Shown here: in pieces, positions 6,863 through 51,891 of the stretch
Numbering within the stretch: position 1 is the first letter of the stretch
Layout of the letters: each line of letters opens with the position of its first letter
Origin: Pseudopyrenochaeta lycopersici
Lineage: Eukaryota > Ascomycota > Dothideomycetes > Pleosporales > Pseudopyrenochaetaceae
Assembly (NCBI GenBank): GCA_003313425.1
Contig: NHZP01000005.1
Coordinates: 1,922,001 to 1,986,000 of the forward strand
Direction of reading: 5' to 3'
Length of the DNA: 64,000 bases
The notes under the pieces: model-generated
Database searches by the model: none
The model's input: the letters and a program-made list of their open reading frames with translations, nothing else
Told to the model about the DNA's origin: nothing
Program-made: the position numbers and the translations under genes

Positions 6863-6928
6863 TTCTTTTAACTTTGGATTAGGAACAAGTACACAGTGAT
6901 CGCAGGCCCAGACACGACTGATTCCAGG

Positions 6929-12748: not shown

Positions 12749-12811
12749 GCGAAATGATATGGATTCCTTTTTGTAGTGTCTTGGACCACTGGACCCTCAA
12801 CACAGGGGGAG

Positions 12812-12962
12812 AGTTGGAATCCAGATCACGTGACATATATAGCCAAACACTGGTGTGGTCCTAGGCCCATACAATGGTGTGACGACACCAGTGAGCTATA
12901 TAATAGAGCCAAAGGCATAGATAGAGAATCATCACTCTTGTTCTCACTTCACGGTTCCAACT
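12812..12962 (+). repeat. Copia1 3' LTR
   Basis: 151 bp, apparently identical to the 5' LTR; preceded by polypurine AGGGGGAG and followed by the CTGTT duplication at 12963-12967. Confidence 0.9.
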
Positions 12963-14203: not shown

Positions 14204-14945
14204 ACGTCCATCCAGGCGTGTCGCAGGACGGGTTCGCACTTCGGGCCTTCGCCATCCCTTGTCCACAAGTGCACAGCCCTGTAGTTGGTATACAACTACT
14301 ATAGAGTTGTTTCTTCCCTAGGACATCGACCTCCGACGAGGGCTACCGCGATGTTGGCTATGCTGTCGATCGTTTCGTCAACACCGTCAATCGACCCTTT
14401 GTGAATACCCCCTGTCTATTCGCGGTCACGAGAGTCTTCGTAAGACTCGGAAGGTCTAGTGCAAAGTACGATTAAGGAAGATGATGTCTCTAATCTCTAA
14501 AGGCCATTTTAAGCTAAGCAGTATGCAGTCGCCAAGTCGGGAGCGAAGATCGCGAAAAGCGAACCAGCCTGATACGCGAACTCACCTTGGCATGTAGTAG
14601 CTTGCATTAGCGTGCTCAGATCTCGTCGTATGCTATCGTAACGAAATCGACGCTATACCTGCTGCAGGTTGACTTCGAACAGCAGCTGTGGCACTTGCCG
14701 GCGGCTTACGATTACCTGCTCGATCCGCCCACGTCGTACCTGCCTCTTCCAGATGCCTTGCGTGCCGGAGAAGAAGTTACAAACAGCGAGAACCTAGTTC
14801 TTAGAGTCCACCGAGAGCCACAACGTGTTAACAGCCCCTCCCCTGTAGGATTCTCGAAGATTCGACGTGGCGATACGTAACCTATATATTTGTGTGCATC
14901 CCCGTCCCCCTCTATGAAACAGAGATAAGAAGAGAAAGAAGAGAA
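14204..14945 (+). repeat. Left arm of NLR1 unit (repeat copy A)
   Basis: About 740 bp, alignable by eye along its length with 44172-44965 (copy B). It ends with an ATCCCCGTCCC...CTCTATGAAA motif and an A/G-rich run. The same CTCTATGAAA motif occurs at 23463-23472 beyond the 3' end of NLR2. Peptide-like block at 14350-14437. Confidence 0.7.
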
Positions 14946-14994
14946 AGAAGTACAGAAGAAGAGAACAAACCCTCGTTTGTCGCTACAAACAGTT

Positions 14995-17900
14995 CTATCT
15001 ATGATTAAAGTTGGTACTACAAAGCCAGACTCTTCCCGTTCCAACACCCATACCAACGACAGTTCCGCACACCAACGAGCAAGACGGTCGATACTCTGAT
15101 GGTAGCCACAGTATGTTGTTGCCGGCATGGCTAATCCAGATGCTGTCTGAGCTAAGGCCTACGCCTAGATACGCAGTGCGCTCAGGTTCGCTGGTATTTG
15201 TCATGCTAGAGACCTCTGAGCTCCGAATAATGATAGTACCTATTTCAGTGCAGATAGCAGAACCAGTAGTGTCAAAGGATAGGTTGTGAAGAGCCTTGCC
15301 GATAGTGAGGGTCTTCAGGCACGCGCCGCTGCTCGCATCCCAGATCTTGACCGTGTTGTCGTCCGACGCCGACGCCAGCTGGGCCGAGTCGTGCGAGAAG
15401 GCCACCGCGTTGACCCAACCGCTATGGCCCTCGAGGGTCTGCAGGCACGCGCCGCTGCTCGCATCCCAGATCTTGACCGTCTTGTCGCCCGACGCCGACG
15501 CCAGCTGGGCCGAGTCGTGCGAGAAGGCCACCGCGTTGACCCAACCGCTATGGCCCTCGAGGGTCTGCAGGCACGCGCCGCTGCTCGCATCCCAGATCTT
15601 GACCGTCTTGTCGCCCGACGCCGACGCCAGCTGGGCCGAGTCGTGCGAGAAGGCCACCGCGTTGACCGAACCGCTATGGCCCTCGAGGATCTGCAGGCAC
15701 GCGCCGCTGCTCGCATCCCAGATCTTGACCGTCTTGTCGCCCGACGCCGACGCCAGCTGGGCCGAGTCGTGCGAGAAGGCCACCGCGTTGACCGAATCGT
15801 TATGGCCCTCGAGGGTCTGCAGGCACGCGCCGCTGCTCGCATCCCAGATCTTGACCGTGTGGTCCCTCGACGCCGACGCCAGCTGGGCCGAGTCGTGCGA
15901 GAAGGCCACCGCGTTGACCCAATCGCTATGGCCCTCGAGGGTCTGCAGGCACGCGCCGCTGCTCGCATCCCAGATCTTGACCGTGTGGTCCCTCGACGCC
16001 GACGCCAGCTGGGCCGAGTCGTGCGAGAAGGCCACCGCGTTGACCGAACCGCTATGGCCCTCGAGGGTCTGCAGGCACGCGCCGCTGCTCGCATCCCAGA
16101 TCTTGACCGTGTTGTCGAACGACGCCGACGCCAGCTGGGCCGAGTCGTGCGAGAAGGCCACCGAGTTGACCCAACGGCTATGGCCCTCGAGCGTCTGCAG
16201 GCACGCGCTCCAGCCATCGCTCATAGCTGGCCTGATTGTGATTTCTTGTGGCTCTTCGTGCTGGAACAGCCGTCTAATCAGACTACCTGTCGGACTGAAC
16301 AACAGCGCAGACGCATATACTTGAAGAGGATAACTCTCGATTGCCCCTTGGTGATACATAACGAATCGCCGTGCGTCTTGAATAAGCTGAGAAAGTTGAT
16401 CGTGGTCCCGCATCTCCTACTTGTGTCAGCATCTACATCATGTACTCTATACGGATATACAGTTCTGGATGCCATACTTGCACTAGCGACCACAACTTCG
16501 CCATCGAGACTACAGCTCTCCCCAAGCTCTTGCACAGACTGAGCCCTTCTAGCCAGTAGAGATACTTCTTCCTTAAAAACCTATCAACAGCTATAGCTTG
16601 TAGGTCATCAACACTGTTCGCTAAGTACTTAGGTTTCGAGTCGTGAAGATGATCCACCCAGTAAATGCACGGATAGCGTGAGGTTGCTAATGGGTCTGGA
16701 TCAGGCGGTTTGACGTGCTCGACATGAAACCCTAGCGCTTCCAGGCTATACATGTCCCTATGCAATGTTCTGGATAGAATAGCTAGCGACTTCGAAAAGA
16801 TCATGCGATGCGTGTCTTCGGTTCCATCTGGAAAGACCTCATGGAACGCTTTTGCGAAGATATAGTCCTTTGCGGACTGATGCACAAAGTACACTGTGTC
16901 GTCTCGCAGGGTAAGGAATGATCCACAAAGGCTGATGATATCCCGCACTGACTCTAGGTCGTCGACAAGGTCTTCAAGCTGCTCAACAAGCGCAACCAGT
17001 TCCACGATCGTGACAGGTCGATACAAGACCGCAGTCGAAGCCAGCACCTGCCGACAGATCTCGGCGCCGTCAAACTCGCTTATCTGTTCCATCATTCGCT
17101 TGTACAAGGAGTCTAGCCCAGGCGGGAATAAGGCTAGTTTCTTTAGCACGTTCCATCTTGGTGTCGCTCTCAGATCTTGGCACACCAACGCCACCCAGAG
17201 AAAGGTATCGTTCGCGTTTGACTTCAGATGTTGGAGCACGGCATGTTGAGTCTCTGCTTTGTACTGCTTTTCCTGCGCCAACTGATCTACCTTTCGCTGG
17301 ATGAAGACGTTAACCGCCGCCGCAACCGACTCTGCGTTGAGCTCAAGGCTCAGTCTCACTTTGTGCCCTGCCCGCTCTAGCTGTGCTTCAATATCTGGCC
17401 AGTTGCGGCTAGAAACGATCCACTTGACGCGGGAAGACACAGATGACTGCTTTGCGACAAACTCTAACAGTTTCGGTAGGTTAGTGACGCATTCGTCCAG
17501 CGCGTCGATGATTAGATATGTCGGGTGCAGGCTTGGGTCTCGTAGCACATCCACGAAGATCTCTGTCAAGGCTACCCAGGCGTTCGCGTCTTCGAATAAG
17601 CTTTTGCCGGCGTGGTCATGCTTCTTGCGGACGTGCGATATAAGCGACGGTTGCTGCTTCACGAGCATGTACAACAGCCCTCGTAGCACGGCCATGGCGC
17701 TGTTGATGCGCGAGTCGGTCGCCTGGCAGAAGAAGTACGAGAGAAGGGCAGTTCTAGGCATCGAACCTTGCAGCTCGTCGATAATGCCACAGAGCAGCAT
17801 CGTCTTGCCTTTACCAGGATCACCTTTCACCCACAGCAGTCGGCTGTGTGGGTCCCGTTGCCATTGCTGGAAAGTAGTGTTGTCAAGGACCCAGCGGTAG

Positions 17901-18727
17901 GAGTCTGCGAGCAGTCCACCTTTCGTATCCTCAATGCGCTTCTTGTCGTCACGAGGATTACTAGAATGTAAGTCACAGAGGCAGTCTTTCAGCTTCCGAA
18001 TCTCATAATGAAGCCGTCTGAACGCTTCCTCTTCGCCTTCGCCATACACGGGCGCGATATCCACGTCACAGATACCTGACAATGAGTATGCCATGTCCTC
18101 TTTTAGCTTGGTCTTTCTGTCACCTTTCCAACGCAGGCGCTCGTTTACTTCAAACTGGGAAAGAGAGTCTTCGTCGAGTACTTGGTGTGGGATACTAGTA
18201 ATTTTGCTGATCAACGACTTTAGCGATAGCTTGTTACCGAGCTTGTCCCATTCTTGAGAGAAGAACTCGACTATCCTTGGGGCAAGAAGCTCTTGAAGCG
18301 TCCAGCCACGTGTGAACCAGCGACTTGACCTAAAAGCAGGCTCCCAAGTAAACTCGGTAAGCATACTGCTGGCTTTCCGCGTCCTTGTCGATACGTCTGA
18401 TAGATAAACATAGCATTTCGCCGCGTTTTGGTACCAGCGAAACATGGACCGGATAGCACCAAAATGCTCAGCCTTGTCCGACTTATCGATGCAGCATGTG
18501 TCAACCCAGAAGTACTGCAGACCATCACGCTGTGCTTGCTCTCCGCAGAAGCGAATCTTCTCGTAGCCACACTTAGCCTTGCCATCGCCTTCCACAAGGT
18601 CCGCGAAAGTCACCTCCTCCGCATCTGCTCCCCAAGTATGTGAAAGTATCGCATAAGGAGGTATCGCGTTCTCGTCGAAGCTGATGATAGTGAGCTCTCT
18701 ATCTTCATCATACTTTAGAAGACGCAT
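14995..18727 (-). CDS. NLR1: HET-NACHT-WD40 protein (HNWD / HET-E type)
   Basis: Two exons (18727-16478 and 16416-14995) join across a 61-nt intron (GTATGG...TAG, CTGAC branch), giving about 1223 residues. The join keeps frame (LVQ | EMRDHDQ) and matches the intron position of NLR2. Domains: HET (YAILSHTWG at about 25, WTLQELLAP at about 141); NACHT with Walker A GDPGKGKT (about 302) and Walker B LIIDALDE (about 404); seven WD40 repeats of 42 residues (126 bp) at the C-terminus. In this family WD40 repeats sense a ligand, NACHT drives oligomerisation and HET triggers incompatibility cell death. The repeats are almost identical and vary mainly in the GHSxxV and SASxDxTV positions. No lesion is seen. 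It lies inside a TA-flanked inverted-repeat unit. Confidence 0.9.
15316..16197 (-). repeat. Seven 126-bp WD40-coding tandem repeats of NLR1
   Basis: Units begin near 15316, 15442, 15568, 15694, 15820, 15946 and 16072. They are nearly identical at DNA level, which points to recent duplication or concerted evolution. Long shadow frames on both strands arise from this periodicity. Confidence 0.9.
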
Positions 18728-19017
18728 CGACTCGTGTGGATGTGCGGTGGGCGCATGCGGTGGGAACGAGACACGATAGGCTCAACGCGGCAGCCTGGTA
18801 GATCGAGCGTGTGGCAACGAGCTGTGCCGTTCACTGTAGAGGTCAGCCCAAGGAGAGGAGTACGGCTCCAGATATTCAACGGTAAACTAGCGATCTATGA
18901 GTCGCGAACTGAGACTGGTGTGGTGTGTCATATTCTTGGTTTCGCGATGGCGTGGCACCAGGCCTCAGGCGGGGTAGACGTAACTCTGTGCACGCGCAGA
19001 GTACCAGCCGCGAGGCT
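18728..19017. promoter_or_regulatory. NLR1 upstream region, partly shared with NLR2 upstream
   Basis: No gene. Patches such as AACGCGGCAGC, GAGGTCAGCC and CAGGCGGGGT recur in the same order upstream of NLR2 (27790-28060), so the two NLRs were duplicated with their 5' flanks. No defined promoter motif can be assigned. Confidence 0.5.
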
Positions 19018-19226
19018 GTAGAGCGGCTGCAACGAGTCGATTGATGGCGTCAACGAAATGATCGACAGCATGACCCACGTCGCCTGCCGGAGGGTGTTGT
19101 CCTAGTAGCTGTAGGACAATAACGCGGCAACTAGATGTCTGCGCACTTGCGAGTAAAGGATAGCGAAGGTCCAAAGTGCGAATCCGTCCCACAACACCGT
19201 GCGTCCCGGCACGCTTGGACGGACAT
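19018..19226 (-). repeat. Right arm of NLR1 unit (repeat copy C)
   Basis: Inverted relative of the first 190-230 bp of copy A; outer end at 19226 next to TA. Peptide-like block (DVGHAVDHFVDA) read on the minus strand at 19081-19018. Confidence 0.65.
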
Positions 19227-19510
19227 TAACCACTGCGACTGGGCGTGTGTACCGCCACAAGCTTACTAGCCACACACTCAGCTTGTCAGCTTATATTACA
19301 TTGTAATTATTCAGAAGGCGCTTAAGGATGACCAGGGTCATCTCGCTTAGATGAGCAAGTACTGATCAGCGTGGCGACGTTGCATGAATCAACTGTTTCG
19401 ATCCGCCATAGGGCTGAAGATGACCTATCAGCGTGCTAGCCAGGGTACAAGTTGCCGATACAGCATTATTATGACTTTAGGAGTGATAAAGACCTGGTGT
19501 TGGAGTCATA

Positions 19511-20067
19511 ACGTCACTCACTGCGTGGCGGGACACACTGTGTGATGGGACACTATTTTTTCCAGACCACCGCAACCACTACACCGCACGTATACAGATA
19601 CAAGCTGTATGCGCATTGGTATTATAGCTATTATTCTCCCAGTACGTCAGCTTCCGATAAAGAAAAGCACGATGTTGGTCACGCTGTCGACGGTTTTGTA
19701 GACGCGACTGGTCAACTCTTCCTTAATACCCCCCTGTTCGCTCGCGATAGTAGATACTTACCAGGTATTCGGAAGACTAGAGAAGAAGCTCAGAGTCTAA
19801 AGATAAAGATTAGAGACTTTCAGGTCACTATTAAGTGGAAATTGTATATTCCGGGAATTTCTCCGTGCAGTCTATACCTGTTCGACAAGGTACACTTTCT
19901 TGAAACACAGCTTCTTTCATTACCGGAGCACTATATACGAAGAGAAGGATAGGAGCAGATTCACACATGTTGATTGCGATACTTGATGGATTTTGTGGTG
20001 CGAGGCCGAAGGTCCGGTTGAGGTGGTGTCTCGTCACACTGTGTGTCCCGCCACGCAGTGAGTGACG
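19511..20067. mobile_element. MITE copy 1 (557 bp)
   Basis: TIRs of about 44 bp starting ACGTCACTCACTGCGTGGCG, with TA at 19509-19510 and 20068-20069. Internally it carries the peptide-like block (19671-19755) also found in copies A, B and C, so it looks like a deletion derivative of the same element family. Nearly identical to MITE copy 2. It has a 136-codon frame (19542-19952), which copy 2 lacks beyond about 84 codons. Confidence 0.85.
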
Positions 20068-20237
20068 TTAGTGGAAGAGCCGCGCTGCGCTAAAAATTAA
20101 GGCCCCCACTTCTGAGGCCCTAAAGGCGACAGCAAGATTGGTAATTTTACTAGAGGCGGCGCTGGGTAGGTAGAGGAAGACTCCTAGCATCTACGACGAA
20201 CAGTGTAGTATAGATATCTCGACGTAGATGGATTTAT

Positions 20238-20307
20238 ACTACTTTGAAGTCTAAGTACCTATGATTTTCTCGCTACGGAGTACTTCTCGCTACGTGCTGA
20301 GGGATGT
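20238..20307 (-). repeat. pogo1 right terminal inverted repeat
   Basis: Inverted end with two GTAGCGAGAA modules, then AGGTACTTAGACTTCAAAG inward; followed by TA at 20308-20309. Over about 70 bp it is very close to both ends of the NLR2 unit. Confidence 0.65.
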
Positions 20308-20309
20308 TA

Positions 20310-21110
20310 TATTTATTCACGCGAGTGCCAAACAGGCTGTATTCGAAGCTCAAGAGATGGTGTTTCCATTGCAAGATTCGAGCAAAGGCTTGTATTCAAG
20401 ATCGAAATACCAGTTAGGCCTTGTTGAGCCGATGACATTGTCCTCAGCACCGCGTTCTTTCTCCAAGCAGTTCGACTTAGGAGAGACCCTAAGTACGTAA
20501 AATTATGTAGTGAAGCAACAAACCTATAAGCTACTGTAGAGACGGCCAGTCTTCGAATCTTGCAGCATTGATAAGTCATCGTGAAACCACCGGCTTGATG
20601 ACTGTCAGCGAGCATGCCAGCATGTCAGCGATGACACTCGACTGACAACCCAACGTGGTTTCCACGCGCGGGCTTTGATGACATCGGCTTCTGGGTCAGG
20701 TGGTAGCAATATCTTCGCAGGAAGTAGGTAAGCAACCCTAACCCTAACCCTAACCCTTGTCTCAGGATACAGTACAACTAACGACAAAAGAGATGCGGCA
20801 GGTCTCACGATAGCCGCGGCACACAAAGTATAGACTACAGTAGATTATGCTGTATTTACTAGTCAGCATGCTGTCGAGGAGTATCTCAAGGGCATGACTA
20901 TTTTCTGGAGTTCATGACAGGGCTGTTTTGAATAACGTAGAGGTGTCAGCAGCATACAGGTGCAAGAACTTGCAAACACAGGCTTAAGAAACATCGGCGT
21001 GGAGTGCAGATCGTCGTTAAAGGTACAGGCCTTCTTATACGCTTCAATCTATACCGTAAGACTTGTAACTTATCTACAGTGAAAGGATTCGCGGATTCTG
21101 AACAACAGTC
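20310..21110. other. Intergenic, no gene recognised; holds telomere-like tract
   Basis: Contains the (AACCCT)4 tract at 20734-20757. Short open frames here have no recognisable motif. Confidence 0.5.
20734..20757 (+). repeat. Interstitial telomeric repeat, (AACCCT)4
   Basis: Four units of AACCCT, the C-strand of TTAGGG, the usual filamentous-fungal telomere repeat. It lies in the 1.8-kb gap between pogo1 and the NLR2 unit. Confidence 0.85.
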
Positions 21111-21953: not shown

Positions 21954-22136
21954 AATTTATATTTTTTTCTTAACTGGCCCCGCTCTCAGCACGAAAAACT
22001 CTGTTATCTTTTCACAGTGTCGTTTCCCATAGTGAAGATTCGCACTAGCTAAGAATTTGTCTCAATCACCTAAAGTTCGCTCGCGACCTTCGATCAAGGC
22101 AAACTTGGCGACCATTATTTCACCTGGTCAAGTTTA

Positions 22137-23343
22137 ACATCCCCCACTACGTAGCGAGAACCACACCGTAGCGAGAAAACCAACAGGTACTTAGACTTCA
22201 ACACATCAGAAACTCTTCCTATGTCTAGCTATCTATATTTTACTAATCAGATAGTATAACTTAGCTATTCCTAGACATCTTGAACCCCTTCGATCTAAAA
22301 ATTACGTTACGCATCGTCGCCTTCGCGCCTGATTCGTAGAGAGCCTTATTCTTCAGCGAAACAGCGTTCCTTCCCTATAGCACCACCATTAAGCTCTTAC
22401 CACTCTATAATGCTTATAACGTCACTCACTGCGTGGCGGGACACACTGTGTGATGGGACACTATTTTTTCCAGACCACCGCAACCACTACACCGCACGTA
22501 TACAGATACAAGCTGTATGCGCATTGGTATTATAGCTATTATTCTCCCAGTACGTCAGCTTCTGATAAAGAAAAGCACGATGTTAGTCACGCTGTCGACC
22601 GTTTTGTAGACGCGACTAGTCAACTCTTCCTTAATAACCCCCTGTTCGCTCGCGATAGTAGATACTTACTAGGTATTCAGAAAACTAGAGAAGAAGCTTA
22701 GAGTCTAAAGATAAAGATTAGAGACTTTCAGGTCACTATTAAGTAGAAATTGTATATTCCAGGAATTTCTCCGTGCAGTCTATACCTATTCGACAAGGTA
22801 CACTTTCTTAAAACACAGCTTCTTTCATTACCGGAGCATTATATACGAAGAGAAGGATAGGAGCAGATTCACACATGTCGATTGCGATACTTGATAGATT
22901 TTGTGGTGCGAGGCCGAAGGTCCGGTTGAGGTAGTGTCTCGTCACACTGTGTGTCCCGCCACGCAGTGAGTGACGTTAATAGTGCTATCTAAGCCTTAGA
23001 ACCTTACTACGATGCTTAGGAGTTATCACTAGCCTTATGTCTGCTGTCGCACGCAAATTCATGTTAGGGTCGCCACCCCAATTGGTACCTCTAACCGGAA
23101 CGATTACCAGTCCTGGCTAGTGCAAAACAGCCACATAATCATCACAGTGGCTGCTAGGCCTGTGGCGGTGTGGAGTCTTGGCAAGCGGGCCGACCTTAGC
23201 CCCGCAGCCTTGCGATTCAAAACTCGACATCGGCCACGCCCCCAGTCAACCAACTCACCTCTTACAGAATTCGCCACCTCACAACCCTGTAGCAGGAGCG
23301 GGCCGGCCATCCTCCTTGCTAGCTCCATCGGAGGCGTTCGTCT
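22137..23343 (+). repeat. Left long inverted repeat of NLR2 unit
   Basis: About 647 bp once MITE copy 2 (22417-22978) is removed. It pairs with 28171-28810; the match stops at CGTTCGTC. Confidence 0.85.
22419..22976. mobile_element. MITE copy 2 (558 bp) inside the left arm
   Basis: Same TIRs as MITE copy 1, with TA at 22417-22418 and 22977-22978. The uninterrupted right arm shows the empty site (CTTATAAC...), confirming TA-directed insertion after the arms formed. Confidence 0.88.
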
Positions 23344-23529
23344 GCCTTTAACGAGACTCAAGCGGCAAGTTTTCAACGTGCTTCTATGTACAATATTTAG
23401 AACGTTCTCGAGGCTTCGCTGTGGCAAATTAGCAGCGCATATATTCATGTTAATCCCCGGCCCTCTATGAAATAGAGAGAATAAATAAATATATAATAGT
23501 AAGTAGTAGTTATCAATATAACTAAGGCC

Positions 23530-26500
23530 TTAGGGTATATTAAGCTCAACCTTGCATATCCACACCCTTCCTGATCCAATACCAATGCCGATTGTATTCT
23601 CTGACACCGCCGAGCATGACGGCCGATATTCTGAGGGTAGCCACACTCGGTTCTCTGAATTATACGTTATCCATACCTTATCTGCGCTAAGAGCGAGACC
23701 TTGATACTGAGGACTGCGAGGCTCCGAAACAGTTAGTAGTGCCGTTGAACCTGGCAAAGCAGTAATGTCGATAGTGCCAGTTTCAGTGTGAAGATATAAG
23801 TCGGTAATGTCAAATGAGATGCGGTGAAGTGTCTTGCCGATGCTGAACGTCTGGAGGCACGCGCCACTGCTCGCATCCCAGATCTTGACGGTCTCGTCGT
23901 ATGACGCGGATGCGAGCCGCGCGGAGTCGTGCGAGAAGGCCACTGAGGTGACATAGTTGCTATGCCCCACGAGGGTCTGGAGGCACGCGCCACTGCTCAC
24001 ATCCCAGATCCTGACGGTCCTGTCATCCGACGCGGATGCGAGCCGCGCGGAGTCGTGCGAGAAGGCCACTAAGTTGACATAGTATCTATGCCCCTGCAGC
24101 GTCGACAGGCAGGCGCCGCTGCTCACATCCCAAACCTTGACAGTGCCATATGACGCAGATGCGAGCCGTGCAGAGTCGTAGGAGAAGGCGACCGACCGGA
24201 CCGTTCCGCTATGCCCCTGCAGCGTCGACAGGCAGGTGCCGCTGCTCGCATCCCAGATCTTGACGGTCTCGTCGTGTGACGCGGATGCGAGCCGCGCGGA
24301 GTCGTGGGAGAAGGCGACCAACTGGACCGAACTGCTATGCCCCTGCAGCGTCGACAGGCAGGTGCCGCTGCTCGCATCCCAGATCTTGACGGTCCTGTCA
24401 TCCGACGCGGATGCGAGCCGCGCAGAGTCGTGCGAGAAGGCGACCGACTGGACCGTTCCGCTATGCCCCTGCAGCGTCGACAGGCAGGCGCGGCTGCTCG
24501 CATCCCAGATCTTGACGGTCCTGTCGGCTGACGCGGATGCGAGCCGCGCAGAGTCGTGCGAGAAGGTGGCCGAGTTGACACAATAGCTATGCCCCTGCAG
24601 CGTCGACAGGCAGGCGCCGCTGCTCACATCCCAGATCTTGACGGTCCTGTCATCCGACGCGGATGCGAGCCGCGCGGAGTCGTGCGAGAAGGCGACCGAG
24701 TAGACCGAACTGCTATGCCCCTGCAGCGTCGACAGGCAGGCGCCGCTGCTCGCATCCCAGATCTTGACGGTCCTGTCGGCTGACGCTGATGCGAGCCGCG
24801 CAGAGTCGTGGGAGAAGGCGACCGACCGGACCATACTGCTATGCCCCTGCAGCGTCGACAGGCAGGCGCCGCTGCTCGCATCCCAGATCTTGACGGTCCT
24901 GTCGGCTGACGCGGATGCGAGCCGCGCGGAGTCGTGGGAGAAGGCGACCGAGAGGACTGAATAGCTATGCCCCTGCAGCGTCGACAGGCAGGCGCCGCTG
25001 CTCGCATCCCAGATCTTGACGGTCCTGTCATCCGACGCGGATGCGAGCCGCGCAGAGTCGTAGGAGAAGGCGACCAACTGGACCGTACTGCTATGCCCCT
25101 GCAGCGTCGACAGGCAGGTGCCGCTGCTCACATCCCAGATCTTGACGGTCTCGTCGTGTGACGCGGATGCGAGCCGCGCGGAGTCGTGGGAGAAGGCGAC
25201 CAACTGGACCGAACTGCTATGGCCCTCGAGCGTCTGCAGGCAAGCACTCCATTGATCTCCTATACTCGGCTTTATCGTGATCTCTTGTGGCTCTTCTTCC
25301 CTAAAAAGTCTCCTTATCACGCTGCCCGCTGGACTGAACACAAGTGCGGACGCGTATGCCTGCAGAGGACTGTTCTCTATCGCCCACTTGTGAGCCATAA
25401 TGAATCGACGCGCATCTCGAACAAGCTCAATCAGCTTAGTTGCATCTGCTCTTCCCTAGGCTATGTTAGTACGCGCAATACATGATTAGCCCTCCTGGGT
25501 TCAAGTATTACATTGATTAACGTCTCGAGTTTTGCCATTGAGACCACCCCTTTCGACATGCTTTTGCACAGGCTGAGAGCCTCAAGCCAGTAAAGGTATT
25601 TCTTCCTTATGAATTCGTGAACAGCGCTTCCGTCTTGCAGGTCAACCGAGGAAGTCGCAGAAGAGCCGAGACACCAGTCGCAAAGGTGATCAATCCAGTA
25701 GATGCACGAGTAACATGACGCCGCTAATGGATCTGGGTCTAGCGGCTCCACCTGCTCAGCAGGATACCCTAACGCACATAGGCTATACATGTCTCGTCCG
25801 AGCGTCTTAGACATGACTTTAAGCGACCTCGAGAAAACTGCGTGGTGGGCCTCGTCTAGTCCGCATGGGAAGATTTCGCTAACGGCCCTCACAAACAGAA
25901 AGTCCTTTGCCGATTGATGCACAAAGTAGACAGTGTCTCCTCGAATTGTGAGGAAAGAGCCACACAGACCAATGATCTCTCGTAACGAGTCAAGATCCTC
26001 AGACATATCGTCGAGCGTATCGACAAGAGAGGTAAGCTCTAGAAGTGTAACGGGTCGGTATACGATGGCCATCGACGCTAGGATTCGCGTGCAGAGATCA
26101 GCAATGTCTGAATTACATATCTGCTGCATCATTCGCTCGTAGAAGGAGTCAAGTCCAGGCGGGAATGCGTTTAGTTTCGCAAGCGTGTTCCATCGCGGAA
26201 TCTGTGCGAGGTTTTGACAGACTAAAGCCACCCAGAGGAACGTGTCGTCTGCGTTCAAGGATAGATAGCGTAACACGGCGTCCCGCGTTGGATTGTTGTA
26301 CTTCTTCCGCTGCGCCAGCTGAAGCACCTTATGCTGGATGAATATACTGACAGCTGTGGAGACAGACTCTGCGTTTAGCTCAAGGCACAGCCTCACCTTA
26401 TGTCCTGCCGTCTCCAGACGCTCCTCGATGTCGGGCCAGTTGCGGCTAGAGACGATCCACTTCACACGAGAAGACACGCACGACTTCTGGACGATGAAAT

Positions 26501-27764
26501 CCAGCAATTTCGGCAAGTCTGTTACGCACTCGTCGAGCGCATCAACGATCAAGTACGTGCTATTCAAGCTCGGGTCTTGCAGGATACTTGTAAAGATCTC
26601 GGATAAGGTAACCCAGGCGTTCACATCCTCAAAGAGCGCTTTGCCTGCATAGTCGTGCTTTTTCCGTATATGCAAGACAAGCGATGGCTGCTGGTTAACA
26701 AGCAAGTAGAGCAGACCTCGCAGCACGGCCGTGGCGTTGTTAATTCGTGAGTCCGTAGCCTGGCAGAAGAAGTAGGACAGGAGATCCGTCTTGGCCATTG
26801 ACTTGCTCAGCTTATCGACAATTCCGCAGAGCAGCATTGTCTTGCCCTTGCCGGGATCGCCCTTGATCCACAGCAGTCGGCTGTGCTGGTCGTGACGCCA
26901 TCGTTGAAAGTCGGAGTTTTCGAGGATCCAGTGGTAAGAGTCCTCCAGGAGTCCACCCTTAGTTTCCTCAATGCGCTTTTTGTCATCCTGGGGATCCGTG
27001 AGGCGTAGGTCTTGCATACACTTCTCCAGCTTACCGATTTCCTCTCGAAGCCGATTGAACGCACTTGCCGTCCCTTCGCCATACATGGGGGCTACGTACA
27101 CTCCGAAAATGCCGAGTAACGAGTACGCTTTATCTTCTCCAAGCGTGGTCTGGCGGTGTTCTATCCACGACAATCGTGTATTGACGCTGAACTGAGATAA
27201 AGGGGTTCCTTCAAGCGCTGACTCGGGAATACCCGTTATCTCGTGAATTTTTTGTCTAAGGGAATCCTTGTCACCAAGTCGCCTGCGTTCCTGGGAGAAG
27301 AATTCGACCGAACTCGGAGCGAGAAGCTCTTGGAGTGTCCAACCCCGAATGAACCATTTGCTGACTCGAAAAGCCGGCTCCCAAGGAAATTCAGAGAGTC
27401 TATCGCTGGCTTTCCTCTTAGCCGTTGAAACATCCGATAGATAGACGTAGCATCGAGTCGCATTGCGGTACCAGCGAAACATGGAGTTGATAGCCTGCGA
27501 GAGCTCGGCCTTGTTTGCTTTGTTGATACAACAGGTGTCTATCCAAAAGTATTGCAGGCCGTCTTGTGCAGCTTGTTCTCTACAGAACCAGATCTTCTTG
27601 TACCCAGGCTTATCCTTGCTAGTGCCATTCGATAGGTCATCGAAGGTAACCTCCTCACCATCGGCTCCCCATGTGTGGGAAAGGATCGCATAGGGAGGGA
27701 TGGCGTCGTCGCTAACCTGAGTAAGACCGAAATCGCCAGTGTCGCTGCGGTGCAAAAGACGCAT
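23530..27764 (-). CDS. NLR2: HET-NACHT-WD40 protein (HNWD / HET-E type)
   Basis: Two exons (27764-25512 and 25455-23530) joined across a 56-nt intron with GTAATA donor, perfect TACTAAC branch site and TAG acceptor, giving about 1392 residues. HET domain with YAILSHTWG (about 25) and WTLQELLAP (about 141); NACHT Walker A GDPGKGKT (about 302) and Walker B LIVDALDE; eleven WD40 repeats of 126 bp (the ninth is a residue short at SYGTV). It is a clear paralogue of NLR1 along its whole length but differs in repeat number. The same domain order is known in Podospora het-e, het-d and het-r, which control vegetative incompatibility. No lesion seen. Its position inside long TA-flanked inverted repeats is unusual. 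Confidence 0.9.
23850..25232 (-). repeat. Eleven 126-bp WD40-coding tandem repeats of NLR2
   Basis: Near-identical units; differences cluster in the GHSxxV loop and SASxDxTV turn. One unit carries a 3-bp deletion (SYGTV). NLR1 has seven such units, so copy number is evolving. Confidence 0.88.
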
Positions 27765-28170
27765 TGTTTAGCATAGAGGTGGATGGGGACAAGCGGTGAG
27801 AACGGATCTCGGTCGGGATCAAACGCGGCAGCGTAGCCGTCGAGACGAGACGGCGCCTTGCCCCGCTAAAGCATATCAGTCCTACGCTATCGAGGTCAGC
27901 CAGCATATAGAGAGATAGGACGCTGGGCTATACCGAAGAACCGCGCCCGATCGCGAGGCGGCGCAAGAGTGCTGTGAGCGACTTCTGTTCTGCTTTGCTA
28001 TGTCTCTGGTTTTGGGATAAAGGGAGTGAGAACGAGCTGAGCCGCAGGCGGGGTGCGGCTGCTTGCACAGCCCACAGTGTGGCGCGGTAAGGCTGACATA
28101 CAGCCGCTAGACTGCAGCAGAAGGCGAACTTGCAAGCGACTAGACGGATTTGGTTACATCTTTAGGGGTA
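27765..28170. promoter_or_regulatory. NLR2 upstream region
   Basis: GC-richer than its surroundings and without a gene. Shares ordered patches with the NLR1 upstream region. It ends where the right long inverted repeat begins. Confidence 0.45.
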
Positions 28171-28810
28171 GACGAACGGCCTGGTGATGCTAGCAGGGAG
28201 GATGGCCGGCCCGCTCCTGCTACAGGGTTGTGAGGTGGCGAATTCTGTAAGAGGTGAGTTGGTTGACTGGAGGCGTGGCCGAGGTCAAGTTTGAATCGCA
28301 AGGCTGCGGGGCTAAGGTTGGCCCACTTGCCAAGACGTCACATAGCCATAGACATAGGCGCTGTGATGATTATGTGGCTGTTTCGCACTAGCCAGGACTG
28401 GTAATCGTTCCGGTTAGAGGTACCAACCGTGGTGGCGACCCTACATGAATTTACGTGCGACAGCAGGCACAAGGCTAGTGATGACTCCTAAGCGTCGTGG
28501 TAAGGTTCTAAGGGTTAGATAACACCGTTATAAGTATTATAGAGTGGTAAGAGTTTAACGGTGGTGCCATAGGGAATGAACGCTGTTTCACCAAAGAATA
28601 AGGCTTCCTACGAAACAGGCGCGAAGGCGACGATGCGCAACGTAATTTTTAGATCGAAGGGGTTCAAGATGTCTAGGAATAGCTAAGTTATACTATCTGA
28701 TTAGTAAAATATAGATAGCTAGACATAGGAAGAGTTATTGCTACTTTGAAGTCTAAGTACCTGTAGTTTTTCTCGTTACGAAGTGGTTCTCGCTACGTAG
28801 TGAGGGATGT
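28171..28810 (-). repeat. Right long inverted repeat of NLR2 unit
   Basis: 640 bp, uninterrupted partner of 22137-23343; TA follows at 28811-28812. Confidence 0.85.
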
Positions 28811-28957
28811 TAGGTGCTTTCAAGCTAGAACAGGTAAAATGTTTGTGGCTATCTTTGATTGGATTTTCCCGTCGCCACCAAGAATCTTTGACAACAATAT
28901 GGTTGTACGACGTCACTACCTCCAGCGGTAACTACCTAGGCAAAGCCGTTGGCAAAC

Positions 28958-29179
28958 ATGTCCAGCATGCCTGAACTCGCGAGCCTAAGGCTTCGTCGAT
29001 TGGTGAATAATTCGCCAGTACCTACAACAAAGTTTGAGTTCAGTTATACTGATTTTTCAGTGGATGGAGAGGCGGAAAAGACTCTAGGTGGCCTTGAAAC
29101 TATCTCGTGCAACCGAAAAATGATGCTGTGCAAATATTCTAGAGACACACCGGGTCTCGGAAGCGTCGAGAATATGTAA
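28958..29179 (+). CDS. Small hypothetical ORF
   Basis: A 73-codon frame from the first ATG. No recognised motif, signal peptide or repeat. It may be chance or the end of a decayed gene; no partner gene is adjacent. Confidence 0.2.
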   Translation: MSSMPELASLRLRRLVNNSPVPTTKFEFSYTDFSVDGEAEKTLGGLETISCNRKMMLCKYSRDTPGLGSVENM

Positions 29180-31595: not shown

Positions 31596-34500
31596 ATAAA
31601 CACAACAGACTGAACATACTACAGTACAACGTACGCAAATCGAGGGATATGGTTATGGCATCGCTACTACGCGACCCACAGATCCACGAATTCGACATCA
31701 TCGCCATCCAAGAGCCGTGGACAAATCCGTACACAGCGACAACACACCACCCAGCCAAGGATAGATTCCACCTTTGCTACCCAACAGGAGATGCGGAAGG
31801 TGCAGCCAGGGTCTGTTTCTTTATCAACAAGAGGCTGGATCAGACAAAGTGGCGCTTCGAGGAGCAAACAAGAGATATCTGCTCCATAGTGATAGAACCC
31901 AATAATGAAGGACAAGAAGAACGACGACTCGTGGTCCACAACGTCTACAACCTGCCCAGAACCAGGAGAAACAGAAGAAGCACGATACCTAAAGCACGCG
32001 AGGCACTGGATAGACACCAGACAGCCGAACAGATACTGCTGGGCGACTTCAACCTGCACCATCCTTTGTGGGAAGGGCTGAACAAAGGAGAGACTGACCC
32101 AGAGGCAGAAGACCTGATAGATATCATAGGAGATTTTGCACTACATAGCACTCTCCCGCCGGGCACGGTCACGTTCGAAGAACGCCGGACACGGTCCGCA
32201 ATCGACCTCTGCTACGTCACGACAGGGCTCATCGACAGAGTCATCAAAAGCGAGGTAGACAGAAACCTGGACCACGACTCAGACCATCTACCCATCAGCA
32301 CAGCGCTCGATTTAAGAATACAACAGCTCGAGAAGAAGTCACGGAAAGCATGGAAGCGGCTAGACGAGAATGCGTACATGAAAGCGCTGAGGCAGTCCCT
32401 TCCTGCACTCCGAAGACCTCTCACGAAGACAGCCCTCGACACATACACTGGTGGAGTAGCCGCCGCCATCCAAGACGCAATCAGCAAGGCAGTGCCGGAA
32501 ACATACCCCTCCTGTTACTCACGAGAGGGATGGACAGAGGAATGCGCAGCGGTGCTCGCGGAGACAAAACGGCTGAAGAGAGCACACAGCCGACTCCATA
32601 CAGAAGAGACATGGGAAGCATACCGCACCTCGAGGAATCACAAAGCAAGGACAGTTCGCAAAGCACTGCGCAATACGCACCGAGAGCGTATAGAGAGGGC
32701 TGCAGAGTCACCGGAATCGTTTTGGAAGCTGGCAAAGTGGGCGAGAACAAGACACAATCAGTCGGCCAGGACGACACCGGCCATACGTCACCCAGATACA
32801 CAGCAGGAGCTGACCGAGCCTGCAGACAAGGCAGAACTGTTCCGGGACGTTTTCTTTCCGACGCCGCCCGAAGCAGATCTGGAAGACATACGGAATGCTG
32901 AATACAGCAGCCAGATCGAAATGCCCCCAATCGAGGAGAAAGAGGTCCGGACTGCCATCCGAGCGGCATCGCCGCTCAAGGCCCCAGGTCCGGATGGCAT
33001 CACGAACAAGGCGCTGCAGACCGGCGTCGACCTGATCGCAGCTCACCTCACGAGGATCTTCAACCAGAGTCTGAAGCTAGGATACTGCCCAAGCGCCTTT
33101 CGGGAATCCATCACAGCAGTCCTTCGCAAACCAGATAAAGCCAACTACGCGATCCCCAAGGCATACCGTCCGATAGCACTGCTCAACACCATTGGCAAGA
33201 TCATGGATGCTGTAATCGCCCGAAGGCTCAGCTACCTAGTAGAAACGCACCACGTGCTTCCACCACAACACATGGGCGGAAGGAAGCACCGATCCACCGA
33301 ACACGCACTGCACGCCGTCACTGCGAGGATCTACGATAGATGGAACCAGGGAACTGCTGGCCAGGTGGCCAGCCTCCTGCTACTGGACGTGTCTGGCGCT
33401 TTCGACAACGTATCCCACAAACGCCTCTTGCACAACCTGCGAAAGCGAAAGGTCGATGAGAAAATAGTCCGATGGATAGCGAGCTTCTTAAGCGATAGAC
33501 ATACGCACATAATGGTCGATGGGTTCAAGTCTGAACCATATGCAATTAATACCGGCATTCCTCAAGGCTCGCCGCTCTCTCCCATGCTTTACCTCTTTTA
33601 CAATGCGGACCTGATCGAGCTGTGCAGCGAAGCAACAGACGCGATGTCGACAGGATATATCGATGATGTCGCCATCCTCGCGTGGGCCAACACCACGGAA
33701 CGGACGTGCCAGGCACTGAGCACGATACTGGAGAAAGCACAGCGATGGGCCTGCACACATGCATCGGTCTTCGCGCCAGACAAGTTTCAGCTGACACACT
33801 TCACAAGGACGCTCAAGAGCATTGATACAGACGCTTCCATCCGAACCGAATGGGGCGAGATCAAACCGTCAAAAACATGCAAGTACCTCGGGGTAACCAT
33901 GGACGCCAGGCTGAATTGGAGGGACCACGTGGAGACCATCAAGCAGAAAGTGACACGCACAGTACACACACTGAGCAGCTTGGGAAATTCCACCTGGGGC
34001 GTCCGACTACAGGACATGCGCAAATTGTACGAGGCTATCGCGATCCCGCAGATGATGTACGCTTGCTCGATCTGGTCCAACGCAAATCTGCACGACAGGA
34101 CCCGCACGTATACACACAAGACAATAGACGCTTTGCGCAGCATCCAAGCAAGAGCAGCCAGAAGCATGAGCGGAGCATACAAAGCCACATCGACGGCAGC
34201 TCTGAACGTCGAGGCCTTCCTACTCCCCGTTGAACAGCAGGTCTGGAGACACAACGCAGACACCATCACTCGACTGTCCTCTAGCCGGGAGATTGCGAAG
34301 ACCGCGGGTTTCGAACTAAGCGAGTATGGACCCGTAGTTGCAAAGAACAACCGCAGGCCGCGCATGAGCCCCTGGCAGAGAGTCTGCGAGGAACTGAGAA
34401 GCAAGCAAGTACGCGATCTCGACAAACAAGAGCCTATTCCACCATTCATCACGCCGCCATGGCGACGAGGGCCGCAGACATATATCGATGGCGACGCCGA

Positions 34501-35491
34501 CAAGGCCCGTGATCGTCACAACCGAGAATGCGCAACGGGCAAGAGCCTCAGCATCTACACAGACGGTAGCGGCATCGACGGCGAGATCGGCTCGGCAGCG
34601 GTGTGCCCACTCACGCAACAAACACGATCTGTGCATATGGGCTCGGACACAGTGTCAACAGTGTATGCAGCAGAGCTGCAGGGCATCAGTTTAGCACTGC
34701 AAATCGCGAAGGGGTATGTAGACGAAACCGGCGCACGCAAAGACATAGCCATATACACGGATAACCAGGCTGCCATATGGTCTATCACCAAGGCGGAGGG
34801 ACGATCAGGCGCATACATCCTGGCAGACATCGCACAACAAGTCCAGGAACTCCAGGACAAGGGAAGATCTGTGACGGTTAGATGGGTGCCAGCCCACGTA
34901 GGCATCCCAGGAAATGAAGCCGCCGACCAGGCCGCCAAGGAGGCCACCGGTTGGAGGGAGAATGGACGCAGAGCGCAACCAGCAGATCCGCCTCCCCAGC
35001 TGTACCCACTCAGGACAACGCTCAGAAGATGGTGCAAGACTCAAGCGGAGCGACAATGGATAAGGGCATGGAGGGAAGACAAGAAGGGCCGCGCGACGTA
35101 CAGACACACGCCGACGCCTACTAAGAAAGTACTGCAGCTCCACGAGAGGCTCAGCAAGAAGGAAAGCGCGTTGCTGGTGCAGCTGCGAACCGAGATGATC
35201 GGTCTCAACGACTTCCTCTTCAAACGACAGGTTCCGGACATCACTAGCCCCGGCTGCAGCTGTGGAGAGAGACGACAGACCGTCGCCCACGTCCTGCTCC
35301 GCTGCAGCAAGTATAAGGACCTCCGGAACCGCATCTTCGCCAACCTTTCCGGACGCCACAGCCTTAGGACGATCCTGAGCAAGCCACAGCTAGCCACTAA
35401 AGCCATCGAGTATATGGAACAAACGCAGATCCTTGGGCAAAGGGGGATCAGAGATATGCAGACGACGTCGAGCACTGGGGGGAGACTGTAG
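31592..35491 (+). CDS. LINE1 ORF2: AP endonuclease, reverse transcriptase, RNase H
   Basis: 1299 residues, no lesion. Apurinic-type endonuclease (about 1-235; LQYNVRKSR, IQEPW, GDFNLHHP, SDHLPI) nicks the target. RT (about 440-740; APGPDGI, YRPIALLNTIGK, GIPQGSPLSP near 654, catalytic YIDD near 689) copies the RNA by target-primed reverse transcription. RNase H (about 985-1125; IYTDGSG, AELQGI, YTDNQAA, WVPAHVGIPGNEAAD) follows. A C-terminal CxC-H-C motif (about 1221-1240) may bind nucleic acid. Domain order fits fungal Tad1 and related elements. Confidence 0.93.
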   Translation: MNKHNRLNILQYNVRKSRDMVMASLLRDPQIHEFDIIAIQEPWTNPYTATTHHPAKDRFHLCYPTGDAEGAARVCFFINKRLDQTKWRFEEQTRDICSIVIEPNNEGQEERRLVVHNVYNLPRTRRNRRSTIPKAREALDRHQTAEQILLGDFNLHHPLWEGLNKGETDPEAEDLIDIIGDFALHSTLPPGTVTFEERRTRSAIDLCYVTTGLIDRVIKSEVDRNLDHDSDHLPISTALDLRIQQLEKKSRKAWKRLDENAYMKALRQSLPALRRPLTKTALDTYTGGVAAAIQDAISKAVPETYPSCYSREGWTEECAAVLAETKRLKRAHSRLHTEETWEAYRTSRNHKARTVRKALRNTHRERIERAAESPESFWKLAKWARTRHNQSARTTPAIRHPDTQQELTEPADKAELFRDVFFPTPPEADLEDIRNAEYSSQIEMPPIEEKEVRTAIRAASPLKAPGPDGITNKALQTGVDLIAAHLTRIFNQSLKLGYCPSAFRESITAVLRKPDKANYAIPKAYRPIALLNTIGKIMDAVIARRLSYLVETHHVLPPQHMGGRKHRSTEHALHAVTARIYDRWNQGTAGQVASLLLLDVSGAFDNVSHKRLLHNLRKRKVDEKIVRWIASFLSDRHTHIMVDGFKSEPYAINTGIPQGSPLSPMLYLFYNADLIELCSEATDAMSTGYIDDVAILAWANTTERTCQALSTILEKAQRWACTHASVFAPDKFQLTHFTRTLKSIDTDASIRTEWGEIKPSKTCKYLGVTMDARLNWRDHVETIKQKVTRTVHTLSSLGNSTWGVRLQDMRKLYEAIAIPQMMYACSIWSNANLHDRTRTYTHKTIDALRSIQARAARSMSGAYKATSTAALNVEAFLLPVEQQVWRHNADTITRLSSSREIAKTAGFELSEYGPVVAKNNRRPRMSPWQRVCEELRSKQVRDLDKQEPIPPFITPPWRRGPQTYIDGDADKARDRHNRECATGKSLSIYTDGSGIDGEIGSAAVCPLTQQTRSVHMGSDTVSTVYAAELQGISLALQIAKGYVDETGARKDIAIYTDNQAAIWSITKAEGRSGAYILADIAQQVQELQDKGRSVTVRWVPAHVGIPGNEAADQAAKEATGWRENGRRAQPADPPPQLYPLRTTLRRWCKTQAERQWIRAWREDKKGRATYRHTPTPTKKVLQLHERLSKKESALLVQLRTEMIGLNDFLFKRQVPDITSPGCSCGERRQTVAHVLLRCSKYKDLRNRIFANLSGRHSLRTILSKPQLATKAIEYMEQTQILGQRGIRDMQTTSSTGGRL

Positions 35492-35784
35492 GTACAGTGG
35501 ACGCGACAGACGAGGCAAGGAACCTCTACGAGCCTAGAAATACGGTATTCAGTTAGTAGAACCGCTATCAAGATGAGGTGGGGACCAAATTGTAGATAGT
35601 GGTTGAGTGAAAACGACAGGTGTCGGGGACAGCTGGTCCTCATAGATAGGATAAAGTGGGGCGGCGCGGACGTTGATCCGCGCCGCGTCGGCTGTCTGCC
35701 ACGCCTGCCACACCGGGCATAGCTGCGCAGCACGCGGCTGAAACCGAGTAGGAATAAATCCAATCCAATCCAATCCTAGAGGCC

Positions 35785-37835
35785 TGCCGTTTACCCTCAA
35801 CCATTATCTACATATGCTTTGCCGGCCATCTAGATACTGGTTCTACTAACTGGATGCTGTGCTTCTAGGTTCTTAGAGGCACTTGCCTCGTGTTTTGCGA
35901 CCGCGATACCTTCAGTCTCCCCCCAGCACTCGGCTGTCGTCTACGCGTCTCTGATCCCCACTTGCCCAAGGATCTGCGTCTGCTCTACAAATTCGATGGC
36001 TTTGGTGGCTAACTGTGGCTTGCTCAGGATGGCTCGGAGGTTGTGTCGTCCAGAGAGGTTGCCGAATACCTGGTTCCGGAGGTCCTTGTGCGTCCTGCAG
36101 CGGAGGAGGATGTGAGCGACGGTCTGCCGCCTCTCTCCGCACTGGCATCGCGGGCTGGTGACCCCTGGCACTCTCCGGCTGAAGAGGAAGTCATTGAGCC
36201 CAATTTTCTCCGTCCGCAGCTGCACCAGCAGGGCGCTCTCTCGCTTGCTAAGGCCCTCATGGAGCTGGAGCACCTTCTTGGTAGGCCGTGGTGTGTGTCT
36301 ATAGGTCGCTCTGCCCTTGGTCTCTGCTCTCCACTTGGCTGTCCACGCTCGCTCCGTCTGTGTCTTGCACCACTTCCTAAGTGTGGACTTGAGTGGGTAT
36401 AACTTTGGAGGTGCTTCTGCTGGTGGACGTCTACGGCCGTTTTCTCTCCACCCTGTGGCCTCCTTAGCGGCCTTGTCTGCGGCTTCGTTTCCCGGGATTC
36501 CGACGTGGGCCGGTATCCACCGGACTGTCACTGGCCGTCCCCTGTCATGGAGCTCCTGGACTTGTCTCGCGATCTCCTCAAGGATGTAGGCTCCGGACCT
36601 TCCTTCCGCTTTAGCTATGGACCAAATAGCCGCCTGGTTGTCTGTGTAGATGGCGATGTCTCGGCGCCCGCCGCCTTGATCGACGTACTCTTGTGCTATC
36701 TGCAGCGCTAGGCTTATCCCTTGCAGCTCGGCCGCATATACTGTTGAGATGGTATTTGGTCCCATGTGCGCAGCGCGGGTCTGTTGAGTGAGTGGGCATA
36801 CCGCTGCGGCGCCTGTCTCGTCGTCTATGCCGCTACCGTCCGTGTAGATGCTGAGGCACCGGCCCGTGTCGTTCGTCCTGTCGTGTCGCTGTCTTGCTTT
36901 CTCGGCATTGTGTTCTATGTGCGTCGCTGGGCCTTGTCTCCATGGCGGGGTCATGAAGGGTGGGATCGGCTCCTGGGTGTCGAAGCCCTGGCTTCGTCGG
37001 CTCTTCATGTCATCGTAGATCTTCTGCCAGGAGTTGGGGTGTCCCCTGCGTTTTCTGGTTGTGTTGGTAGGTTGCGTTGTGCCTGTCTTGAGGCCCGCCA
37101 TGTCCGCCATGTCCTTGTTCGAGAGAAGCCGTGTGATAACGTCTGCGTTGTGTTTCCATATCTGTTGCTCCATTGGCAGGAGGTGTGCTTCGATGTTTAG
37201 CGCGGCGCTCGATGTGGCTCTGTACGCCCCACAGATGACTCTTGCTGCTCTCGCTTGAATACTCTGTAGGATTTCGAGTGTCTTTTTCGTGTATGTCTTT
37301 CCTCTCGTGCTCGCGTTAAACCAGACTGAGCACGCAAACATCATCTGAGGGAGCGCAGTGCCTTCGTATATCCTACGCATGTCGATCAGTCCCACACCCC
37401 AGGTAGACCCCCCGAGGCAGCTTAGTGCGTTCACTGTCTTTGTCGCCCTTTGTCTGATCTCTTCTATATGTTCCTTCCATCGGAGTTTGGTATCCAACGT
37501 TAGTCCCAAGTACTTGCATGTTGCCTTAGGCTTCACCTCGCCCCATTCGGTCTGGATTCCTCTGCTGGTATTGATCCGCGTCAGTGATCTTGTGAAGTGA
37601 GTCAACTGGAACTTGTCGGGGGCGAAAACTGAAGCGTGGGTACTAGCCCAGCGTTGTGCTTTCTCCAGGGCTCTGCTCAGTGTGTCACATGTCGCTTCCG
37701 TCGTTTTACCCCACGCTAGGATACCCACGTCGTCTATGTAGCCTGTCGACATAGTGTCCGGTTCTCGGGTGCACTCATCTATAAGATCGGCATTATAGAA
37801 GAGGTAAAGGATAGGTGACAACGGCGAGCCTTGAG
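35785..37835 (-). mobile_element. LINE2, RT-RNase H half, interrupted on both sides
   Basis: Same family as LINE1 in opposite orientation. Its 3' region is split by LINE1 (rest at 29615-29784). Its 5' side stops abruptly within the RT motif QGSPLSP at 37835, one base from a Copia LTR end (37837), so the upstream half is missing. Confidence 0.88.
35941..37835 (-). pseudogene. LINE2 ORF2 C-terminal part (RT end, RNase H)
   Basis: About 630 residues beginning inside RT at QGSPLSPILYLFYNAD. Includes catalytic YIDD, RNase H (IYTDGSG, YTDNQAA, WIPAHVGIPGNEAAD) and the terminal CQCGERRQ...H...C motif. The frame is open to its stop, so the break is 5' truncation, not point decay. Residues upstream of QGSPL in the open frame come from the LTR. 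Confidence 0.85.
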
Positions 37836-51847: not shown

Positions 51848-51891
51848 GGTTATGAGCCCGGGTTCTGCGCCTATTTTCATACCTGACTCAA

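Follow-up and report, generated by a model that had tools for sequence, protein, structure and literature searches.

Paired right ends of a pogo/Tan1-type transposon around HET/NLR genes of Pseudopyrenochaeta lycopersici: a probable family of non-autonomous elements

The DNA analysed here, hereafter called the window, is a stretch of 64,000 nucleotides from Pseudopyrenochaeta lycopersici (assembly GCA_003313425.1, contig NHZP01000005.1, positions 1,922,001 to 1,986,000), and our subject is a 6.7-kb unit within it (22135–28812), in which two long inverted arms enclose the gene NLR2. Most likely, this NLR2 unit is a non-autonomous terminal inverted repeat (TIR) transposon from the pogo/Tan1 group within Tc1/mariner, composed of paired right ends with a HET-NLR gene as cargo, and it belongs to a family of units sharing the same right-end/gene/right-end construction. 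The anatomy, the inward pairing of the arms, the HET enrichment, the TA flanks and the insertion of three family members as whole units at a single TA are directly seen in the sequence. HET and NLR genes help decide fusion between fungal individuals; some fungal species possess hundreds of them, and we know of no route by which they spread. In the genome studied here, mobile DNA seems to have dispersed and rearranged such immune-type genes of self/non-self recognition.

The NLR2 unit and its family

The initial annotation had described two opposed long arms ending at TA around one NLR gene between positions 22137 and 28810, and this description holds, with the true extent, TA included, being two bases wider per side. 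Both ends start with TAACATCCC, and a TA is present at both flanks. The right arm (28189–28812, minus strand) is an uninterrupted right-type transposon end of 624 bp, and the left arm (22135–23323, plus strand) is a right-type end of the same overall extent, split into two segments (22135–22416 and 22979–23323) by a 562-bp Miniature Inverted-repeat Transposable Element (MITE) at 22417–22978, a feature absent from the initial annotation. This MITE has inverted 60-bp ends (85% identical) and a second copy at 19509–20070 (97% identity, 300 nt compared). Left and right arms are about 91% identical when inverted (91.6% over 287 bp and 90.6% over 342 bp), and each finishes on the inside with a core of ~40 bp, delimited by the junction alignment described below (23282–23323, plus strand; 28189–28230, minus strand, inverted relative to the left). 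A pair of MITEs around a gene, already dismissed in the initial annotation, was rejected: the arms possess an outer end but no inner TIRs, whole-unit empty sites exist for family members, and the sole MITE is the insertion within the left arm. A scan of 22000–29000 against Rfam gave no match up to E 1.

A genome search with the arm yielded many copies. The whole assembly (62,731,430 bases in 188 contigs) was also searched with a motif specific to the right end, and 40 of the 47 hits, those with 0–2 mismatches, were used, seven with 3 mismatches being dropped. Neighbouring ends up to 25 kb apart formed 11 inward, 2 tandem and 0 outward pairs. Chance pairing was rejected, as random placement gave a mean of 0.15 inward pairs and a maximum of 2 in 2000 trials. 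About 13 of the 40 ends are unpaired and three belong to transposase elements. Together with C1:285258-291344, whose right end escapes the motif, 12 right-end/right-end units were obtained, the others being the window unit, C46, C54:287705-300133, C34:432194, C43, C14, C42, C13, C5:1757973, C68 and C2. The initial annotation had proposed such a search for arms and the genes between them, and the outcome it had named as adverse, arms scattered as single repeats, did not materialize: pairing was consistent, and nine of the 12 units contain a HET gene. Arm identity within units reaches 99.7–99.9% (C46 and C51, the latter a unit of another arm type), and P-type arms of different units are 82–98% identical. 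C43 is a hybrid, its left arm being 95% like C46 and its right arm 98% like C5:1765642. The window unit is likewise hybrid, with a subtype A left arm, 96% like the arms of C46 and C54, and a subtype B right arm, 91% like those of C43-right and C5:1765642.

In regard to the cargo, the window unit holds HET-NACHT-WD40, C2 and C1 hold HET with NB-ARC and TPR, and C5, C14 and C46 hold HET with TPR, ANK or DUF7104 repeats nearby, while the HET genes of C43, C13 and C54 (two genes) and the second gene of C46 have no other Pfam domains in the open reading frames (ORFs) tested. C34 carries an ANK gene together with a HET remnant of 38 aa and has a hAT nested in it; ANK and C2H2 genes are present in C42, and in C68 a hAT with nothing else clear. 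In the 106 kb covered by the units, chance would place 0.39 HET genes (at a genome total of 231) or 0.88 (at a total of 520). Using a fixed list of 150 of the 520 HET candidates, 6 of 14 units hold a listed HET; among the 88 remaining pogo-type transposases, 4 have one within 5 kb. In a tree of 13 HET domains (that of NLR1 and 12 from units with arms, the half-armed C54b among them) with 40 background HETs, built with rough support values, the unit label changes 10 times, at least seven of these changes being forced by supported branches, and the HET cargo is thus, as judged from this tree, polyphyletic.

Movement was examined by searching the joined flanks of 13 candidate insertions in the same genome, with the best 40 of 317 candidates scored, and by a second search including C51 and L074, with 40 of 77 scored. 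Among the former 40, the C43 unit has uninterrupted single-TA copies at six places, two of them at 99%, and the 12.4-kb C54 unit (287705–300133) at 20 places, the best at 96%. For C51, an empty site was identified at C142:8257-8429 (95%), and the unit's own flanks make up a tandem repeat with a 23-bp period that is preserved upon joining at one TA. A TA target duplication was found for all three units and, because their empty sites carry a single TA, they were inserted as wholes. Since C43 is a hybrid with whole-unit empty sites, its A and B ends did move jointly. The inner C54 arm (291860) was considered as a possible right end of the unit and rejected, since the flank joined there gave 0 spanning matches as opposed to 20 for the outer end (300133). 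For L074, matches to the joined flank reach just 7 bp past the TA. Among the best 40 of 317, no spanning match was obtained for pogo1/NLR1 (described below), C46, C14, C13, C5:1757973, C2, C1, C34 or the C54 inner end. The idea put forward in the initial annotation, that DNA transposons could be candidate distributors of fungal NLRs, is strengthened by the pairing, the HET enrichment and the three whole-unit empty sites.

Transposase-bearing relatives and the cargo genes

The arms of the NLR2 unit are related to elements that possess a transposase. One of them, the pogo1/NLR1 unit, lies in the window at 5480–20309; between its left and right ends it contains a pogo1 transposase broken by a Copia element, and the gene NLR1. 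The 3′ portion of this transposase (DDE_1; 12965–14098, plus strand, in ORF 12776–14098) is 73% identical, in its piece 12965–14095, to C54:161682-162803. The Copia element occupies 6701–12962 inside the transposase gene, and its insertion looks recent because its 151-bp direct repeats (6701–6851 and 12812–12962) are identical. A telomere-like interstitial stretch of CCCTAA repeats is located 0.4 kb beyond the unit (20734–20757).

In the transposase-bearing elements, left and right ends are alike over ~45 bp and divergent beyond, and the NLR2 arm is homologous over ~430 bp to the right ends of three elements, namely C54:160468-167067, the pogo1/NLR1 unit and C2. The resemblance of the outer ~70 bp to the pogo1 right end, pointed out in the initial annotation, was confirmed at 83% over ~100 bp, and the outer 69 bp of the right arm (28744–28812, minus strand) share 94% identity with the right end of an uninterrupted relative (C54:166999-167067). 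The left-type motif occurs at three places in the genome (pogo1, C54:160505 and C34:442579). In all 12 pairs, that of the window included, the ends are of the right type at both sides, without a distinct left-type end. By this comparison, the NLR units are built of two inverted right ends, without transposase.

The element at C54:160468-167067 contains an open 649-aa DDE_1 frame at C54:161682, and some of the proteins homologous to it are named tan1 transposase or DDE-1; pogo/Tan1-type transposons of ascomycetes are also called Fot-like. The element also carries C2H2-type reading frames (one frame in its C28 copy), and no HET was found in it. Its joined flank matches at seven places over 94–97 bases, 12–15 of them past the TA, with 96–99% identity, which is suggestive only. 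The interior of C28:134226 is a 98.8% copy of this element, with a right-type motif farther out at C28:141399; its ends lie beyond the stretch read, and it was set aside. The initial annotation had suggested that the pogo1 transposase could recognise the NLR2 ends. The shared ends agree with this, but as the pogo1 copy of the window is broken by Copia, a better candidate helper would be the 649-aa frame at C54:161682, recognition being predicted from the shared ends.

NLR2 is encoded on the minus strand by two ORFs, as delimited by ORF and Pfam searches: the first (25461–27764, 767 aa) contains HET and NACHT, and the second (23530–25398, 622 aa), in a different frame, contains WD40 repeats. 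The resulting order of HET, NACHT and WD40 is one that we take to resemble HET-D/HET-E. NLR2 itself may be damaged, its ORFs being in different frames, unless a short intron separates them; a single uninterrupted frame of 1224 aa makes up its homologue L074. Among named relatives, a Zopfia rhizophila protein comes nearest to the first ORF, at 80% identity, and NLR2 has close homologues in the Pleosporales Byssothecium, Periconia and Lentithecium as well; homologues in other species, both of NLR2 and of the C54 transposase, were compared as proteins, apart from their neighbouring DNA. The HET-NACHT ORF of NLR2 gives ratios of nonsynonymous to synonymous substitutions (dN/dS) of 0.12–0.19 with NLR1, L074, L076 and L081, and all pairwise values among these five HET-NACHT parts fall between 0.10 and 0.27, so the NLR cargo genes have been retained by selection through most of their history.

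The inner core and alternative explanations

An alignment of 22 junctions places the common part of arm and cargo borders in ~40 bp, CAANNNTRTGGCCGGAGCGGGTCGGCCRTCCTCCCTGCTAGC, the sequence outside it being arm-specific and that inside it gene-specific. This core, in which a short dyad GGCCG-8-CGGCC can be read by eye, has 142 copies in the genome and 0 in the reversed control. Among the 100 copies listed, there are 23 inward, 4 outward and 3 tandem pairs, with a mean of 0.47 inward pairs expected by chance. Of the inward pairs, 21 were read (C25:299881 and C96:59911 were left out), and 16 of these contain a HET gene or remnant (C11 a remnant only), called by Pfam or by tblastn with our own HET set; those without HET are C12, C25:420511, C37:49264, C42 and C68. 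Eight further cassettes were chosen from the pair list, C51 being an already known HET carrier. Pogo-like TA ends are present in arm type S (TAACGTCCCTCCCTGCGTGCCGC), represented by the 694-bp arms of L074, 98.8% alike, and in arm type Q (TAACGTCCCCCACTGCGTAGCGAGAC), represented by the 1164-bp arms of C51, 99.9% alike. In three of the eight cassettes (L076, L079 and L081), the arms of one side differ from those of the other. In the initial annotation, the system comprised two NLR genes within TIR units; NLR1 and NLR2 do lie in such units, but the scale is larger, with the further arm types and the 142 inner cores. Another core-bounded cassette, L075 (C37:48400-54900), contains a 1127-aa ORF with DUF7104 repeats, and no HET was found in it.

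Two cargo genes recur elsewhere in the genome. The core of the C54b cargo has a copy at C1:1805800 (99.9% over 2856 bp), surrounded by different inverted arms, and that of C14 has a copy at C25:292000 (97% over 2610 bp), where no matching arm was seen; in both cases, homology ends inside the innermost ~55 bp of the arm. Because two genes recur at loci without the same outer arms, arms and genes look exchangeable. According to the mechanism that we propose, a pogo-type transposase encoded elsewhere would bind the paired right ends and mobilise the unit in trans. More tentatively, the ~40-bp core would act as the joint at which different arms and different genes recombine, and through such core exchange, related transposon ends could come to carry many distantly related HET genes.

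An alternative history would start from one ancestral HET-carrying transposon, in which genes and arms were inherited and diverged together, without exchange. The HETs of NLR1, NLR2, C2 and C1 do form a single clade of unit HETs, and the pogo1/NLR1 unit of the window (5480–20309) combines a pogo transposase with NLR1, yet we consider this history rather unlikely in view of the polyphyly of unit HETs among the background HETs and of the nearly identical C54b and C1:1805800 cores within different outer arms. Furthermore, dS between NLR cargo lineages, excluding the young pair L074/L076, is 1.1–2.9, against the 82–98% identity of the P-type arms, and such old genes with similar arms imply either that arms were exchanged onto genes or that arms were homogenised by gene conversion. 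It could also be that the core is itself the TIR of a separate HET-carrying transposon and that the pogo arms are its landing sites only. The abundance and inward pairing of the cores fit this explanation, as does the fact that L076, L079 and L081 are inverted between their sides over 53–65 bp only. What lies outside the core is, however, not unrelated target DNA but a set of recurring arm types (P, Q, S and others), which are frequently inverted on both sides, and the empty sites found so far sit at the outer TA ends, which makes the explanation improbable.

A more trivial possibility is that arms and HET genes merely co-occur in repeat-rich regions, the pairs being palindromes or separate insertions produced by rearrangement and never having moved as units. 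The genome paper reports 42 HET genes close to repeats (PMC6034849, in the parts considered), about a third of the right-type ends are single, and C42 shows a palindrome continuing past the transposon end, with flanks common to C25 and C34. Nevertheless, the excess of inward over outward pairs, the whole-unit empty sites of C43, C54 and C51, and the scarcity of listed HETs near other pogo-type transposases leave little room for mere co-occurrence. Even less probable is that giant Starships carry the NLR genes as ordinary cargo and that the pogo ends are incidental. Starships do carry NLRs, according to the parts of PMC12506042 considered, and a gene of the DUF3435 (Starship captain) type at C46:84779-86115 lies 2.8 kb away from the C46 unit with its two HET genes. 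That unit is, on the other hand, the only one of the 12 within 100 kb of any of 29 DUF3435 matches; the nearest match on the window contig is ~120 kb from the window unit, with none at its edge, and the small units possess their own empty sites. Starships can span several hundred kb, and distance from DUF3435 alone is therefore not decisive.

Several observations weigh against the reading of the NLR2 unit as a non-autonomous transposon. The evidence is drawn from one genome only. ORF and Pfam searches of the window unit found no transposase, leaving it without a mover of its own, and PF03221, the CENPB/Tc5-type DNA-binding domain, was undetected in the C54 transposase at E 0.01; it is precomputed for several homologues of this protein. 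Empty sites, which the initial annotation had proposed to compare between strains, were found within the genome for C43, C54 and C51, but for the window unit there was no spanning match among the best 40 of 317 candidates. Three of the 12 pairs have no HET gene, C34 having its remnant only and C42 and C68 having none found, and in 44 of 500 shuffles of the HET tree the changes were as low as those of the unit label, which is only weakly clustered or scattered. The palindromic arms of C42 (L018, C42:358000-367300) measure 3.3 kb, are 99.94% identical and extend ~0.9 kb beyond the transposon end; because of this, not all arm pairs are clean insertions, and recombination between inverted repeats can also build arms. 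Finally, gene conversion, and not exchange, could be the source of arm similarity.

Going one step beyond the transposon reading, the core could serve as a preferred recombination joint for HET/NLR genes and for the arms of several pogo subfamilies, forming an integron-like supply of immune receptors, a proposal that we regard as speculative and doubtful at present. If true, any gene gaining cores could be equipped with mobile ends, which may explain part of the HET expansion of this species.

Relation to known systems and further repeats of the window

The closest analogue is ToxTA (formerly ToxhAT) of Bipolaris sorokiniana and relatives, a non-autonomous element of Tc1/mariner type with 74-bp inverted ends and an effector cargo (PMC12506042). 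As far as the parts of this source considered go, both systems occur in Pleosporales and share the TA duplication, long inverted ends, a cargo unrelated to transposition and a helper located elsewhere, which here is a putative one. ToxTA is one family carrying an effector, whereas the units described here have HET/NLR cargo and two right-end copies of 0.6–1.2 kb and are many, with different genes. Ascomycete transposons of the pogo/Tan1 type have a DDE_1 transposase, relatives annotated as tan1 or DDE-1 and TA insertion in common with our family, although their transposase elements have a left and a right end, unlike the two right ends of the NLR units, which lack a transposase.

In Pack-TIRs and Pack-MULEs, non-transposon sequences are likewise enclosed by transposon ends, and capture via template switching or gap repair has been proposed (PMC8277862, parts considered). 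Their fragments are diverse, whereas here the HET/NLR class dominates, several units hold intact-looking genes, and a common core lies at the joint of gene and arm. Related to this, copies of the C14 and C54b cores exist that lack P arms or lie between arms of another kind, and these could be either sources or derivatives of the unit cargo. Starships are known as carriers of fungal NLR and HET accessory genes (PMC12506042, PMC9594970, PMC9815663, parts considered) and differ in their giant size, their DUF3435 recombinase and their direct repeats, while the present units are 4–20 kb long, with inverted ends and TA sites. The genome paper of Pyrenochaeta lycopersici ER1518 counted 231 HET modules and suggested a link of the HET genes near repeats with recombination; the parts of it considered here deal with proximity only and contain no element, ends or insertion sites (PMC6034849). 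A search of the open-licence PMC literature, preprints excluded, brought up no account of small TIR elements that carry HET or NLR genes. Small TIR units with HET genes thus appear to be what is new here, NLR cargo of Starships, the TA-inserting cargo element ToxTA and HET expansion being already known. Small HET-carrying DNA transposons with exchangeable ends would provide a concrete mechanism for the presence of HET genes near repeats, and they would offer non-self recognition genes a spreading route beside that of giant Starships.

NLR1 (14995–18727, minus strand) likewise consists of two ORFs, HET-NACHT at 16433–18727 and WD40 at 14995–16413. Its WD40 repeats (15182–16294, with a 126-nt unit) are up to 96–99% identical over 300-nt stretches, and those of NLR2 (23777–25333) are 62–80% identical to them; concerted evolution of the WD40 repeats in one of the two paralogues is indicated. 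Other repeats of the window include a long inverted repeat (38260–40664 and 47813–50213, 95–98% complementary in pieces, with a spacing of ~7.1 kb), diverged inverted arms of ~1 kb each (75%) with 469 nt between them (34419–36983), and a tandem array of 25–26-bp units (51891–52127).

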